The position numbers and the translations under genes were made by a program. Positions 9,140-48,304 of a stretch of 50,438 bases of DNA are shown in pieces. Source of the DNA: a virus; IMG/VR virus record IMGVR_UViG_3300005613_000092, positions 1 to 50,438 of that record, one strand, 5' to 3'. The stretch's first letter is position 1. Each line of letters opens with the position of its first letter. The notes under the pieces are model-generated. The model saw only the letters and a list, made by a program, of their open reading frames with translations, was not told the DNA's origin and ran no database searches.

Positions 9140-9262
9140 GAAAGGCCTTTCGGTTTGGCAGATGTTTTGTTCGCCGGAGCCTGTGCTGCGCAAAGTCGGC
9201 AATAACCCATATTTTCATCATCGTGATCCAAAATCGGCCATTGACTGAAAGGGGGTGATATA

Positions 9263-9346
9263 ATGGGATCCTACGCTTCTGAGGTTGGCAGTCGATGCTG
9301 TTCTGCTGGCAGTTTTGGCGGAGTCCTCACTGAATCTAAGTTTTAG
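9263..9346 (+). CDS. 27-aa micro-ORF with strong ribosome site
   Basis: ATG 9263 preceded by gaaagggggtgat, one of the best ribosome sites in this half. The small product is Gly/Ser/Cys rich. It sits in a 248-bp gap with no larger gene and may be a leader peptide for the 9388 gene. Confidence 0.4.
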   Translation: MGSYASEVGSRCCSAGSFGGVLTESKF

Positions 9347-19289: not shown

Positions 19290-19403
19290 TAGTAGATTTA
19301 AGCTCCAAAATCAACAATACAGTGAGCAAAGCTCCGGCCTTAGCTGGTTCGTAGACCTTAATGTGAACGCTGCTTACTGTCAATGATCAAAAAAGGTTGT
19401 CCA

Positions 19404-20276
19404 ATGACTGAACGAGAAATAACAAAAGCGGCCAACTTGGCTAAAGAGATTATAAAAGAAATACCCAGTAACAACCAGAGCACTCCAGATTACGAAGTGG
19501 CGCTTGGGTGTTTCAACGATCCAAGGAAAAACGTGTATCTCGTAAGATCTAAAGAAATTACCGAAACATTTAAAAAGCCGATTGCAAAGAACATATGCTT
19601 TAGGACTTTATGGCACGATTTGCAGCAAGGAAACCCAAACAGGGTTTACATGAGAATCGAAGACTGCAAGAAGGTGCAAGTAGAAATTACTTCCAAGGAG
19701 AAAAAGCAGTGGATAAAACTTGCCCAAAAACATGGCTTTTTGCCGAAGTACATCAGACAGTTTTGGGTAAGTAAGGGAGAATATGTCGTTAATTTAGATG
19801 ACAAAAATATGTGTCCGTCACTGCTGTATTCATATTTGTCTGTAATAAGATGCATCAGGGACGAACCTGCTTTTGTTAAAAGTATTTTGATTATGACAAA
19901 CCAAGGTGTGAATTACTATTTAGCTTTTACTCTTGCTTCTAGTATATACATAACAAACTCTGGCCATCATATTGTCGACATTTCCAAAGGTTATCCTAAT
20001 AGGGCTGTCAGAAGTTATGAGGCGTTTCTTAAAGTTGGTTTGAACGTAGGAATGGCAATCGCTCTCAAAAGGTATTTTGACAACCCTAGGAAGTGGGACG
20101 GCAGGCATGTGCCTAGGAGACAAGATGAGACAACCAAGTTGACATGGAACTGTCATGATACCATAAGATCAGCAGCGGAATATGTGAAAGTGGAAATTAA
20201 GGCATCTAGGCTTTACGATCCTTCGGTAGTTAAAGCGGTTATGTCAAACGGCGGTAAAAAAGTAGAATTGGGTTAA
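19404..20276 (+). CDS. Hypothetical 290-aa protein upstream of the tRNA
   Basis: ATG 19404 preferred over ATG 19383 because aaaaagg precedes it at fair spacing. Soluble, mixed alpha/beta, with the block GHHIVDISKGYPNRAVRSYE and a basic C-terminal third (RYFDNPRKWDGRHVPRRQDE). No family recognised. The tRNA begins four bases after its stop, so the two may be on one transcript. Confidence 0.7.
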   Translation: MTEREITKAANLAKEIIKEIPSNNQSTPDYEVALGCFNDPRKNVYLVRSKEITETFKKPIAKNICFRTLWHDLQQGNPNRVYMRIEDCKKVQVEITSKEKKQWIKLAQKHGFLPKYIRQFWVSKGEYVVNLDDKNMCPSLLYSYLSVIRCIRDEPAFVKSILIMTNQGVNYYLAFTLASSIYITNSGHHIVDISKGYPNRAVRSYEAFLKVGLNVGMAIALKRYFDNPRKWDGRHVPRRQDETTKLTWNCHDTIRSAAEYVKVEIKASRLYDPSVVKAVMSNGGKKVELG

Positions 20277-20279
20277 TAT

Positions 20280-20369
20280 GGTGGGGGTGGCGAAAAAGGC
20301 TAGACGCGTTGGGTTGTGGCCCCAGTGTCCATGAAGGACGTGCCGGTTCAAGTCCGGTCCCTCACCCCA
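20280..20369 (+). tRNA. tRNA with GTG (His) anticodon in a Leu-like class II body
   Basis: Acceptor stem gtggggg (20281-20287) pairs with ccctcac. Base 20280 is G (G-1) and pairs with discriminator C73; CCA is encoded (20367-20369). The anticodon stem ttggg/cccag holds loop ttgtggc, anticodon GTG at 20316-20318. The T arm gccgg-ttcaagt-ccggt is standard. The variable region is about 16 nt with a gtcc/ggac stem, and the D arm plus ggctagacgcg reads like tRNA-Leu. G-1:C73 and GTG are the main HisRS identity elements, so charging with His is expected, but the long variable arm belongs to Leu/Ser/Tyr-type tRNAs. Confidence 0.9.
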
Positions 20370-20492: not shown

Positions 20493-20891
20493 CTATTGGT
20501 TTTGGATATACTTTTTAATAACATCTAAAGGAGCACCGCCAGTGGATACTACAAAATACCCAGAAGACCAAAGAGTTCTGGAATGTTTTCCCCAATACGG
20601 AAAAGTATATTTGTTGTGTAGATACGAAGAAGACCGCACTTTTAGTGCTCCTATAACACTACCAAGATTGTCTTGTGGTGTTGTTTCCAAAAGAAAATGT
20701 ATGTGGTCTTCTTCGCCGTTTATTTCAGAAATGCTTACAGACATTCGTTTAGCCATTTCTGGAAGAGTTAAAATCAAATCTTGGAGAATGTGTTGATGCA
20801 GAACTTTATATCGAAACTTGGTAACAAATACAATATGGTAGACGAGAAAGAACTTGCAGTGTGTCTTACTTTTAAGGTCGTTATACCTCAT
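20493..20891 (-). CDS. tnpA: IS200-type Y1 transposase TnpA
   Basis: 132 aa from the second Met (20891); a start at 20924 would add 11 residues. It opens THCKFFLVYHIVFVTKFRYK, typical of the family. The HUH motif is visible in EEDHIHFLLE, and the catalytic Tyr lies in DVIKKYIQNQ at the C-terminus. Known members cut and rejoin single-stranded ends at the LE and RE hairpins during replication. The gene appears intact, diverges from tnpB, and their 5' ends overlap. Confidence 0.92.
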   Translation of the reverse strand: MRYNDLKSKTHCKFFLVYHIVFVTKFRYKVLHQHILQDLILTLPEMAKRMSVSISEINGEEDHIHFLLETTPQDNLGSVIGALKVRSSSYLHNKYTFPYWGKHSRTLWSSGYFVVSTGGAPLDVIKKYIQNQ

Positions 20892-21935
20892 AATCTTACT
20901 CCTATTTTGGATGAGTTGTATCAAAAAGCATCTGTTTGTGTTAATAGAATGTTAGAAGACAGAACCAAATCTTCTTCAAAATATTACAAAGAGGTACCTT
21001 GTGTTCTTGCTAAAAGTCTTATTTCTAAATACCAAAGAGATAAGAAACTAAAGCAGGTCAAAAATCTTGTTTTGCCTGTATGTGGGGATAAAGGAAAACA
21101 AGTAAAGATTGTAGAAGGTGGTATTAGAGTTCCAGCCTTTTTCAAAAAATCTATTTTGCCAGTCAAGTTTCCTAAACCCATTGTAGGGTTTATTAGACAG
21201 GTAGAGTTCTTTAAAAAAAATGGTAAGTGGTTTATGTCCTATTCCTATAACACCCCTGCTTTACAAGAACAAGAGATTCAAGGATTTCTTGGAGTTGATA
21301 GAAACAGTGTAGAAAATGTTGTAGTTTGTGCTGATGTTATGTCTGGAAAAGTTAGGAAGTTAGGTCCAGATGTATCTGGAATAACTAAAAACTTTCGTAA
21401 TAGAAGGAAAAACTTACAGAAGAAAGGAGCTAAAAATGCTTTAAAGAAAATCAGAAGAAAACAGTCAAATAGAGTTAAAGATATTAATCATAAAACTTCC
21501 AAATCCGTTGTTGACTATGCCAAATCACATCGTCTTGCTATTGTATTAGAAGATTTAGGAAAGATTTCCAAGAAAGGTAAAGCCAAGAGATATGTTCAAA
21601 AATCTCAATGGTCTTTCTATCAGTTGGAAACTTTCATCAAATACAAAGCATCTTTGCTTGGCATACCCATCTATTTTGTAAATCCGGCTTATACAAGTCA
21701 GGTTTGTAGCAGATGCGGAAGTATCAACAAACCAAACGGTAAAGTTTACAAATGTGATTGTGGAAGTTTGACTCATAGAGATTCGAATGCCGCCTTTAAC
21801 ATATCGGCTAACGGATGGTTTCTTTATGAGCAAACGGCAGAACAAAATGCTTCAGCCGTGGGGCATATTGGTGTTCCCCTAAACCAGAGTTCCGAAAAGG
21901 CGGTTCAACTAGAATCGTCGGGCGGTGCCCGATGA
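20835..21935 (+). CDS. tnpB: RNA-guided nuclease TnpB
   Basis: 366 aa from ATG 20835; earlier in-frame ATGs at 20781 and 20796 lie inside the tnpA overlap. The RuvC triad is intact: Asp155 in GVDRNSVEN, Glu239 in IVLEDLGK, Asp316 in LTHRDSNAAFNI. The zinc finger is CSRCGS...YKCDCG (about 291-308). The arginine/lysine-rich bridge region (RNRRKNLQKKGAKNALKKIR) precedes RuvC-II. Known TnpB proteins use a right-end RNA whose guide is the flanking DNA. Complete and probably active. Confidence 0.93.
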   Translation: MVDEKELAVCLTFKVVIPHNLTPILDELYQKASVCVNRMLEDRTKSSSKYYKEVPCVLAKSLISKYQRDKKLKQVKNLVLPVCGDKGKQVKIVEGGIRVPAFFKKSILPVKFPKPIVGFIRQVEFFKKNGKWFMSYSYNTPALQEQEIQGFLGVDRNSVENVVVCADVMSGKVRKLGPDVSGITKNFRNRRKNLQKKGAKNALKKIRRKQSNRVKDINHKTSKSVVDYAKSHRLAIVLEDLGKISKKGKAKRYVQKSQWSFYQLETFIKYKASLLGIPIYFVNPAYTSQVCSRCGSINKPNGKVYKCDCGSLTHRDSNAAFNISANGWFLYEQTAEQNASAVGHIGVPLNQSSEKAVQLESSGGAR

Positions 21936-43137: not shown

Positions 43138-46100
43138 ATGACAATAGGCGGTTTCTTTGGCGGTGTAGTTGGCGGAGTAATAGGATGGTTTGCTGGCGGT
43201 CCTTATGGAGCGTTTGTAGGCGCTTCGTTTGGTTTTGGTATAGGAATGATGGTAGATCCTATATCACCTGATGTGCAGTCTCCTGGGCAGCCGCAGATGG
43301 CAGAATATGTTGTTCCTACATCAGATGAAGGGCTGCCTCTGCCTGATCTGGTTGGCACTACTAAATGCACTGGCAATATAATAGTATATGGTGGAGATAG
43401 AGCAGAGGCTATTTATACTACTACTACTGCAGAAGGCGGTAAAGGCGGAGGAGGAAGTTCTTCTTCGACACAGCAGACAGGATGGAAGTATTATTCAACT
43501 TGGGCTATGGGAATATGTTTAGGCGAAGTTAATAAACTTTATACTGTTTACAAGGGAGATAATGCTGTATGGAATGGTGAAATAGAATTAACTCCTGGTG
43601 TTAATGATGTTACAGGTGAAACTATTACATTAAGTGAGAATATGGGCTCAATGACATTTTACTTCGGGACTGCAAATCAAACTGCTAATTCTGATATAAC
43701 TGCATTGCTAGATGATGCTTCATTAAGCCCTGCTTATAGAAATCAATGTTATGCTGTGTTTCACGACAATATGATGGGAGAAAACAGCAACAGAGTTCCA
43801 GCAATGAAGTTTGTTATAGGAAAGTTTCCAGTATTAGGCATAAGTGGCCGGGAACAAATAGGATTATATGATTACAATCCAGCAGATGCTGCTTATTATA
43901 CTTTGGTTAATATGGCAGAACTGCCTGCAGCATATGTAAATTCAACGACATTTTCAGGTGCAGCATATACTTTATGGGAAGAGTCACTAGGTATAAGTTG
44001 TTTTTATCAATCATATAATTCAGTTGATACATATTTAACATCAATATTAAATCATTGTGTCAGTATTATTAAATATAGCAATAATGGTATGTTTGATATG
44101 AAATTGCTCAGAGATGATATATATGAATATGATATGGAAGAAACAGATGAGAATATTTATTTGGATAAACCTATTATAAATAGAATTTCATGGATTGATA
44201 CTTTAAATGAGATAAAACTTTCTTACTCATTAAGGACATATAATTCTGAATGTGTTTTAGATGCTCCAGTATTATCACAAGGAGCAGAAGTATCAGGAAC
44301 ATGCACAGGAGAATGTGAATATAATGTTGCATTAGGATGTCCGCCTTTGACATTGCAAAGTTCTACGGGCGGAGAATGGATTGATGTTAAGACAGTAGAC
44401 AGTTCATTTACTTGGTTATGCAGACCAACTAAATGTGCTGGAAATGAAACAAGCATTAGAATTAAAGATATCCAGGGTCAAATAAGCAATGTTATTGAAT
44501 TAGATGTTAGCTGTACTTGCGGCTATCCTAGTATGAGTGTAAGCGCTGCTCATTTAGAATGCAGTGAAGTTGCTGATATAACATTGGTTGGTGCAGTGGA
44601 TGATTGCTGTGATTATACTATTACTGCATTTAGTGATGGCGGTACAATAGAACAAGGTATAAAACAGACAGGAGCAGCTGCTTGGACTTATACCTGTCCA
44701 GATGGTTCTGGTAGAGGCAATACATGCTGTTTAAATGACTATGTAAGGTTGGATTTAAAGTGCTGCAAGACTATAATAGATCAATATACTATTACACTAG
44801 GAACACCAGTTCCTATTATATGGAGCCCTGCCAATCCAGCTGATATGGAAGCAGGAGGAACTATAGGCGTAGTAGTTCAAGGCGGTAGAGGCGGTCCATT
44901 TCATTGGGTCTCATTAGATATGGATGAATTCTGGTTTACTTGGGGAGATACAGAAGGAAGAGAGAATTATTTAAATGCTGCTGAAGATTTAGAAGACGGA
45001 ACAGAAGCAGTATTAACTGTATTTGATGCCTGCAACAGCAATTGCAACGGAGAAGTAACAATCGGTGCTGCTGGCCCGGCAGCGATGATGATGGGTGAAA
45101 ATCCAAGAGGCGAGTTGGGAGATGGAACTACTGTAAACAAATGGGTTCCGACACAAGAAGTAACAGCAGCATTAGATTGGGCATTGATTTCTTGCGGAAA
45201 AGCAACTACTCAAGCAATTAAAACAGATGGCACAAGGTGGGCTTGGGGTAAAAATAATAATGGTGTTATGGGTATAGGATCTATTGATAATGATGATCAC
45301 ACAACACCAATTCAAGCAGACGAAGGCAATCAGTGGGTTAAAGTTGTATCTGGTTGGCAGTCAAGTGTTGCTTTGCAGTCAGATGGAGATGTTTCAACTT
45401 GGGGATATAATAGTTATGGTGAAATTGGAGACGGAAGCTTTCCGCCGATACAAGGTCCGACTTCTCCATCTCATGTTTTATCAGATGGTGCTGATATAGC
45501 GATAGGCTATTATCATTGTTTATGTGTAAAAACTGATGGCAAAATGTATGGTTGGGGTGCAAATGGTTATGGTGGATTAGGAATTGGCAGTGTTTCCCCA
45601 CCAGATAATTTTGAAGTTTCTCCTGTTCAAGAAGCTCATGGTTATACTGATTGGTTGAAAGTTGCATGCGGTTCTGGCGGACACTCATTAGCACTCAAAG
45701 TTGATGGAACTTTATGGACATGCGGCAGAAACAATGATGGTCAATTAGGAATTGGTTCAAAAGATACAAGTGCCCATACACAATGGGTGCAGATCGGCAG
45801 TGATGTTTACAGCGCAATAGCAGCAGGCAATCAGTCAAGTTTTGCAATTAAAACAGATGGAACACTTTGGTCTTGGGGCGGTAATGTAGTAGGAGCGGCA
45901 GCGCAAGGCGGATCAGGAGATATATTAACTCCAACACAAGTAGGTTCTGATGATACTTGGACTGATGTTCAAGCAGGATATTTCAATGGTATAGGGCTTA
46001 AATCAGATGGAACACTTTGGTCTTGGGGATGGAATCAATATGGTCAATTAGGATTAGGCGATACTTCAAGCAGAAGCGTGCCTACTCAAGTCGGTTCTGA

Positions 46101-46170
46101 TACAACCTGGACATCTGTGGCTTACATTAAAGTAGAGCATGGCGGTGCAATTCAAGAAATAGAAGGATAA
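43138..46170 (+). CDS. Tail hub N-part with Ig-like and 7-blade RCC1 propeller
   Basis: 1010 aa. Gly-rich hydrophobic start (GGVVGGVIGWFAGGPYGAFV). A hub-like region runs to residue ~375 (MFDMKLLRDDIYEYDMEETD then NRISWIDTLNEIKLSYS). Cys-rich Ig-like repeats follow to ~640. Seven RCC1 blades run from ~645 to 1000, each with a G-x-N-x-x-G-x-L-G type turn and an A-I/L-K-T/S-D-G-T-L-W-x-W-G strand. The hub domain is interrupted here and resumes in the next gene. The propeller probably binds the host surface (inference). Confidence 0.85.
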   Translation: MTIGGFFGGVVGGVIGWFAGGPYGAFVGASFGFGIGMMVDPISPDVQSPGQPQMAEYVVPTSDEGLPLPDLVGTTKCTGNIIVYGGDRAEAIYTTTTAEGGKGGGGSSSSTQQTGWKYYSTWAMGICLGEVNKLYTVYKGDNAVWNGEIELTPGVNDVTGETITLSENMGSMTFYFGTANQTANSDITALLDDASLSPAYRNQCYAVFHDNMMGENSNRVPAMKFVIGKFPVLGISGREQIGLYDYNPADAAYYTLVNMAELPAAYVNSTTFSGAAYTLWEESLGISCFYQSYNSVDTYLTSILNHCVSIIKYSNNGMFDMKLLRDDIYEYDMEETDENIYLDKPIINRISWIDTLNEIKLSYSLRTYNSECVLDAPVLSQGAEVSGTCTGECEYNVALGCPPLTLQSSTGGEWIDVKTVDSSFTWLCRPTKCAGNETSIRIKDIQGQISNVIELDVSCTCGYPSMSVSAAHLECSEVADITLVGAVDDCCDYTITAFSDGGTIEQGIKQTGAAAWTYTCPDGSGRGNTCCLNDYVRLDLKCCKTIIDQYTITLGTPVPIIWSPANPADMEAGGTIGVVVQGGRGGPFHWVSLDMDEFWFTWGDTEGRENYLNAAEDLEDGTEAVLTVFDACNSNCNGEVTIGAAGPAAMMMGENPRGELGDGTTVNKWVPTQEVTAALDWALISCGKATTQAIKTDGTRWAWGKNNNGVMGIGSIDNDDHTTPIQADEGNQWVKVVSGWQSSVALQSDGDVSTWGYNSYGEIGDGSFPPIQGPTSPSHVLSDGADIAIGYYHCLCVKTDGKMYGWGANGYGGLGIGSVSPPDNFEVSPVQEAHGYTDWLKVACGSGGHSLALKVDGTLWTCGRNNDGQLGIGSKDTSAHTQWVQIGSDVYSAIAAGNQSSFAIKTDGTLWSWGGNVVGAAAQGGSGDILTPTQVGSDDTWTDVQAGYFNGIGLKSDGTLWSWGWNQYGQLGLGDTSSRSVPTQVGSDTTWTSVAYIKVEHGGAIQEIEG

Positions 46171-47569: not shown

Positions 47570-48304
47570 ATGAAGATATGTTGGGATAATTTAGAAGACT
47601 TACGATTAAAATCAACGGGAAACTTTGGAATAGTTGGTAAACCTACTACTACTTTAATTTACCATGATTCTTGTAAGCAATGTGGAGATCCTTATCTCGC
47701 CTATGCAAAAGGTGCTAATAGTAAAGGACATGGCACACACGAGTATTGTAGCATACAATGTAGTAATAAACTTTCCAAAGAAGAAAGAAAAACAGCGTCG
47801 GAGAATAGCAAAGGTAGAAAGAATCATTTTTATGGAAAAACACACACAGAAGAAACAAGAAAGAAGATGTCAGTTATAAATGCTGGAGAAGGCAATCCAA
47901 TGTATGGGAGAAAACATTCAAAAGAAACAATAGAGAAAATGTCTGGTAAAAATAATTGTATGTATGGTTTAAGAGGTAAAGATACTCCTGGATATATACA
48001 CGGATTATCATATACCAAACAATATAGAGCAGGAGAAACTGCTAAATACAGAACTAAAAAATCGAATCAGACATCTGAACTTACAGAAAATGAACAAAAG
48101 AAAGTGCGACTCTATTACCAGATAAGAGAATACATGGGTGAAGATTGGCATGTAGACCATATTAGACCTATTTCTAAGGGTGGGTCAGACCATCCAGATA
48201 ATCTACAGATAATACCGAAGGAATTAAATTTTAGAAAGAGTGCGCAATACCCCTTATCACCAGAGTTAGAGAAAGAATGTGAGCAGTATGGATTTAGAAT
48301 ATAA
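47570..48304 (+). CDS. NUMOD3-HNH homing endonuclease
   Basis: 244 aa from ATG 47570. Order: zinc finger (DSCKQCGDPY...YCSIQC), two NUMOD3 DNA-binding motifs (YGKTHTEETRKKMS and YGRKHSKETIEKMS, a third partial at YGLRGKDTPGY), then the HNH domain (DWHVDHIRPISKGGSDHPDN). Free-standing between tail genes; it looks intact. The fragment at 36097 is a truncated relative. Confidence 0.9.
   Translation: MKICWDNLEDLRLKSTGNFGIVGKPTTTLIYHDSCKQCGDPYLAYAKGANSKGHGTHEYCSIQCSNKLSKEERKTASENSKGRKNHFYGKTHTEETRKKMSVINAGEGNPMYGRKHSKETIEKMSGKNNCMYGLRGKDTPGYIHGLSYTKQYRAGETAKYRTKKSNQTSELTENEQKKVRLYYQIREYMGEDWHVDHIRPISKGGSDHPDNLQIIPKELNFRKSAQYPLSPELEKECEQYGFRI

Follow-up and report, generated by a model that had tools for sequence, protein, structure and literature searches.

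A tRNA-His gene with a class II body in a phage genome and its counterparts in other phages

The sole tRNA gene of a virus record of 50,438 bases (referred to as the window, i.e. the whole stretch of DNA that was analysed) combines the GUG anticodon and acceptor-end determinants of tRNA-His with a class II body bearing a long variable arm of Leu type. We propose that this gene, at positions 20280-20369, encodes a translation-competent phage tRNA-His that would be charged by HisRS and rejected by LeuRS, and that the window copy derives from a tRNA-Leu. We assign this reading a probability of roughly 0.7. Together with the window copy, scans of IMG/VR and GenBank phages revealed 25 distinct class II tRNA-His(GUG) genes, and thus about 24 others, in diverse phages. 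The division of tRNAs into class I and class II by amino acid is regarded as near-universal in bacteria, with long arms for Leu, Ser, Tyr and Sec, and phages appear to break this structural rule repeatedly.

Structure and identity elements of the window tRNA

ARAGORN called a tRNA-His(gtg) at 20281-20369, and the Rfam family RF00005 matched 20281-20366 with 41.3 bits (gathering threshold of 29). From 20280 to 20369 the gene reads G-GTGGGGG-TGGCGAAAAAGGCTAGACGCG-TTGGG-TTGTGGC-CCCAG-TGTCCATGAAGGACGT-GCCGG-TTCAAGT-CCGGT-CCCTCAC-C-CCA. The GTG anticodon, G-1, discriminator C and encoded CCA described by the first-pass annotation were all recovered in the sequence, the anticodon by ARAGORN as well, and the variable region of about 16 nt with its own 4-bp stem was likewise found in the ARAGORN cloverleaf (Table 1). 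The acceptor stem contains one G-U pair and zero mismatches, and the anticodon loop looks ordinary. A spaced pattern for class II tRNA-His matched the window once and none of 100 shuffles. Because the plain minimum-energy fold of the gene is not strikingly stable (z of -1.1), the cloverleaf is taken from ARAGORN, Rfam and the covariation detailed below.

Table 1. Coordinates of the tRNA gene, its parts and further features of the window
Feature	Position	Strand	Remarks
297-aa ORF	19383..20276	+	ends 3 nt before G-1
G-1	20280..20280	+	pairs with C73, HisRS determinant; from the sequence; -1:73 is G:C in 12/12 aligned homologues
Acceptor stem, 5' strand GTGGGGG	20281..20287	+	pairs with 20359-20365; ARAGORN cloverleaf
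T8-G26 including D arm	20288..20308	+	3-bp stem GCG/CGC, AAA...GG loop; Leu-like, also in some tRNA-His
Anticodon arm	20309..20325	+	5-bp stem TTGGG/CCCAG, 7-nt loop TTGTGGC, anticodon GTG at 20316-20318; ARAGORN
Class II variable region TGTCCATGAAGGACGT	20326..20341	+	16 nt; 4-bp stem GTCC/GGAC at 20327-20330/20336-20339, loop ATGAA, two unpaired 3' nt GT (Leu-type)
T arm	20342..20358	+	5-bp stem, loop TTCAAGT
Acceptor 3' strand CCCTCAC, C73, CCA	20359..20369	+	discriminator C73 at 20366; encoded CCA at 20367-20369
Y1 transposase and TnpB-like protein (Cas12f1-like TNB domain)	20493-20924, 20781-21935	-, +	IS200/IS605-type element directly downstream of the tRNA
1010-aa tail protein	43138-46170		RCC1-like (regulator of chromosome condensation) matches in C-terminal part
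NUMOD3 and HNH homing-type endonuclease	47570-48304		between tail genes

The 297-aa ORF upstream of the tRNA yielded no family match and no relative in viral_contigs; it is likely co-transcribed with the tRNA, which RNase P would then release. A search by TerL returned no usable relatives of the window phage in viral_contigs.

Both His identity features, the GUG anticodon in a 7-nt loop and an encoded G-1 opposite C73, are present in the window tRNA. Its stem-bearing variable region of 16 nt replaces the class I loop of 4-5 nt, which is the usual tRNA-His structure and no identity determinant. Where 48/49 phage and reference tRNA-Leu have A73 the window tRNA has C73, and its GTG is no Leu anticodon, whereas its class II arm follows Leu architecture (4-bp stem, two unpaired 3' nt, GT). 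It carries neither the G73 of tRNA-Ser nor a Ser-type arm, in which one unpaired 3' nt is most frequent.

We compared the acceptor ends of the tRNAs in the fetched set. C73 was found in 25/26 class II GTG tRNAs, a count that is partly set by construction, since only one of the four search patterns left C73 free. G-1 and C73 occurred together in 21/26 class II GTG tRNAs (about 80%) and 15/22 class I tRNA-His, and in 0/34 class II tRNA-Leu and 0/39 class II tRNA-Ser. Among the class II GTG tRNAs that came from searches without the C73 requirement (n=8, window counted), 7/8 had both (Fisher p ~3e-7). Four class II tRNA-His members carry U-1.

These elements lead to the following proposed course. 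RNase P would leave G-1 in place because it is paired with C73, and host HisRS would charge the tRNA through G-1:C73 and the GUG anticodon, tolerating the long arm. Host LeuRS would reject it because A73 has become C73, and SerRS because it lacks G73 and its arm is of Leu type. The charged tRNA is expected to decode CAU and CAC, and would supplement or replace host tRNA-His during infection. A host HisRS of the alpha-proteobacterial A73 type would fail to recognise C73, which counts against this explanation. His codons make up 1.89% of codons in the chosen window ORFs (2.72% before the tRNA and 1.34% after it), and because they are not abundant in the window phage, they provide no strong supply argument.

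The published determinants fit HisRS charging. G-1:C73 is the main HisRS determinant, with the anticodon second, and gives minihelices His acceptance (PMC9976931). In E. coli tRNA-Leu, A73 is crucial while the anticodon and variable arm are no LeuRS determinants, and changing A73 to C73 abolishes leucylation of minimal tRNA-Leu variants (PMC9976931). Long-arm tRNAs engineered to carry G-1:C73 led to His insertion in E. coli; since the first such design, H073, remained uncharged until its variable arm was altered, and the S005 chassis failed, the long arm does not come free for HisRS (PMC7590224).

The first-pass annotation had also raised the option of a tRNA built to misread His codons. A device that is charged with Leu (or Ser) and places this residue at His codons could draw on the Leu-type body and on an anticodon that E. 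coli LeuRS does not use (PMC9976931), but C73 stands in place of A73 and is joined by G-1, a combination that is absent from the class II tRNA-Leu counted above. Because C73 abolishes leucylation of minimal tRNA-Leu and G-1:C73 is a HisRS determinant (PMC9976931), we regard such a device as very improbable.

Recurrence across phages and the search of bacterial chromosomes

The first spaced pattern yielded eight stretches in IMG/VR, six of which were real tRNAs. The set was enlarged with three further patterns and with BLAST against GenBank phages, the latter giving Arthrobacter phage Talia1610; two narrow DNA patterns gave zero matches. Cultured carriers belong to two phage groups, namely the Brevibacillus phages Jenst and SecTim467, and Talia1610. 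The 91-nt gene of Jenst and SecTim467 is annotated simply as tRNA-His in GenBank, and its class passes unremarked in the Jenst record and in the tRNA-mentioning parts of the Jenst paper, which give tRNAs merely as counts (PMC4909266).

A number of pattern matches were set aside. Seventeen were chance matches, and one was a class I tRNA. Four others are 3' pieces or halves of ordinary tRNA-His following unrelated sequence, and are probably prophage attachment sites in tRNA-His. Two (L072 and L079) look degenerate or like other tRNAs and were left out of the count; L072, at 9173-9268, is a GTG tRNA of 96 nt that has C-1, G73 and a variable region of 26 nt, that is, a class II tRNA without the His end determinants.

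The other carriers mostly have large tRNA arrays, with the class II gene usually located inside the array. It was the only tRNA-His in the regions read of L005, L006, L008, L009 and L027 and of the viral-looking contig of L012. In the regions read of records G002-G007 no other tRNA-His was seen beyond the one that belongs to the host in the MAG G006. In L028 and L004 the class II gene is accompanied by a class I GTG tRNA. As the sole His tRNA of a broad tRNA set, the class II gene is most simply explained as a working tRNA-His.

Other tRNAs of these phages also depart from their usual class. Short class I variable loops were observed on phage-array tRNA-Leu at seven loci (L009/L089 counted as one), and long variable regions on phage Met, Asn, Lys, Gln, Gly, Arg, Pro, Cys and Ile tRNAs at nine. 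At two loci, an unusual stretch separates the 5' half of a Leu-type tRNA from a later T arm, a pattern that may represent intron-bearing tRNA-Leu.

In an alignment of 12 class II sequences, 97.1% of cells were paired, all four variable-stem pairs (4/4) displayed two-sided (compensatory) changes, and the covariation score was reached by 0/500 shuffles. For the whole family, the covariation and the invariant -1:73 pair therefore rule out decay or a sequencing error, and independent homologues whose arms covary exclude the error that would have undone the first-pass annotation. A pseudogene, recombination scar or assembly error in the window could account, as a recombinant would, for a 3' part of 31-33 nt that resembles phage tRNA-His beside longer matches to tRNA-Leu, and for the IS200/IS605-type element just downstream. 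However, all stems are intact, CCA is encoded and the design is common to independent homologues with compensatory changes, so that we attach hardly any weight to this option.

We also scanned bacterial chromosomes. In 84,980 bacterial and archaeal species the first pattern retrieved 17 stretches, of which a single one proved to be a genuine class II tRNA-His. It lies on a MAG contig that we judge to look viral, where a DnaG-type primase and a thymidine kinase-like gene are found as well; a class I tRNA-His belonging to this MAG itself is also present. A loose-form scan of 150 genomes of the phylum of G401 gave one match, a non-tRNA. A class II scan of 392 genomes of one phylum gave 0 matches, a weak result since the pattern required ACCCCA, which is rare in tRNA-His there; the class I control pattern matched 57/61 genomes of this phylum. 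Because the patterns demand an encoded CCCA (and the first pattern a certain D arm as well), chromosomal absence is not proven by these scans, which among the genomes covered yielded no confirmed candidate for a class II tRNA-His on a bacterial chromosome.

Origin of the long arm and reasons for its presence

That a tRNA-Leu changed identity, as the first-pass annotation proposed, stands as the leading origin for the window copy rather than as a proven one. Its arm has Leu architecture and its longest BLAST matches in phage records are tRNA-Leu, but its nearest body without the variable arm is a tie between class II tRNA-Leu and class I tRNA-His. Segment comparison spoke neither for nor against a chimera by simple recombination. 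The D arm attributed to tRNA-Leu is indeed Leu-like but not exclusive to it: because TGGCGAA...ACGC D arms are also common in phage class I tRNA-His, the D arm alone does not prove Leu origin. The variable arm seems the better marker. The arms of fetched class II tRNA-Leu mostly consist of a 4-bp stem and two unpaired 3' nt ending in GT, whereas those of tRNA-Ser mostly have one unpaired nt. From these comparisons we lean towards a Leu origin for the window copy, in which the anticodon and acceptor end of a tRNA-Leu would have turned His-type.

Across the 25 class II tRNA-His, the nearest body without the arm was a class II tRNA-Leu in 14 cases, a class I tRNA-His in seven and another tRNA in four. 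A tree over 61 columns was poorly resolved; explaining the class II tRNA-His label on it takes 12 changes, of which the branches with good support alone force five. L005, L009 and L012 are nested with tRNA-His of class I; L028 and L127 take positions among tRNAs for Ser and Tyr. Since some of the long-armed copies sit within class I tRNA-His, gain of an arm on tRNA-His suggests itself as a second route. The tree thus points to several likely origins or reversals, by at least two routes, and other phages would have reached the same form separately, some of them by arm gain.

Why the arm is present is a further matter, and one answer, compatible with a working tRNA-His of Leu origin, is that it is tolerated rather than selected, with bodies drifting because acceptance by HisRS, RNase P, EF-Tu and the ribosome is all that is required of them. 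The fetched loci contain 29 other non-Leu/Ser/Tyr tRNAs with variable regions of at least 10 nt and at least 12 tRNA-Leu with short ones, some of which are possibly weak predictions, and on the tree the two classes of tRNA-His are intermixed. This suggests that body class is loose in phage tRNAs generally. On the other hand, the arm is a well-paired, covarying hairpin, and Leu-type arms outnumber random insertions, which leaves drift under relaxed structure at close to even odds.

Alternatively, phages may repeatedly make class II tRNA-His, by Leu conversion or arm addition, as an adaptation: the long body would escape a host nuclease or toxin directed at the class I body of tRNA-His, and the phage tRNA-His would keep working while host copies are destroyed. 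Phage tRNAs do counter tRNA-depleting defences, such as T5-type tRNA-Tyr against retron-Eco7 and tRNA-Lys against PrrC170 (PMC11555353), and class II tRNA-His recurs in unrelated phages while being unconfirmed in the bacterial chromosomes scanned. Nevertheless, most anticodon nucleases act on the anticodon loop, which is ordinary-looking here, no defence system was linked to the window tRNA, and in the same phages long arms come and go on other isotypes too, as fits relaxed structure without a specific selector. We therefore deem such an adaptation unlikely; if true, phage-host conflict would target the body class of tRNAs in addition to the anticodon loop. The long arm is most simply explained by tolerance, with defence escape as a possible reason.

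Relation to known tRNAs

In the part of the literature that our searches covered, no natural tRNA-His of class II is described, nor does one appear in a survey of the tRNA genes of viruses (PMC6409571). Annotation tools name such tRNAs by their anticodon and leave the odd body unflagged. A recurrent phage tRNA-His that breaks the class split with all His determinants kept would represent a natural identity swap that is testable in cultured phages, and bears on HisRS tolerance of a long arm, on tRNA identity change in evolution and on defence evasion via body shape. According to a 2017 abstract by Mukai et al., certain bacteria and their phages reportedly use 8/4 structures for Ser and His tRNAs; these 8/4 His tRNAs could overlap with the class II tRNA-His described here.

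The tRNA-His of Jenst, SecTim467 and Talia1610 share the class II Leu-like body, GTG, G-1, C73 and CCA with the window tRNA, but come from other phages and have other sequences. Bacterial tRNA-His(GUG), such as E. coli hisR, has the same GUG anticodon, G-1:C73 and encoded CCA, but belongs to class I, with a variable loop of 5 nt where the window tRNA has its 16-nt class II arm. Bacterial class II tRNA-Leu, such as E. coli leuT (CAG), corresponds in D-arm type, 4-bp variable stem, 3' GT and class II layout, and differs in having A73 and a Leu anticodon instead of C73, G-1 and GUG. The engineered H072 and H073 (PMC7590224) combine a long variable arm with G-1:C73 and are charged with His in E. 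coli; unlike the window tRNA, they are synthetic, built on a 9/3 allo-tRNA chassis and equipped with an amber-suppressor anticodon. Finally, the 8/4 and 9/3 allo-tRNAs (PMC7609411) resemble it in their long variable arm and in anticodons outside Ser/Leu/Tyr, rarely that of His, but differ in their acceptor/T stems, which are 8/4 or 9/3, and in the Ser type of their arms; the window tRNA has a 7-bp acceptor stem with the extra -1:73 pair and a 5-bp T stem.
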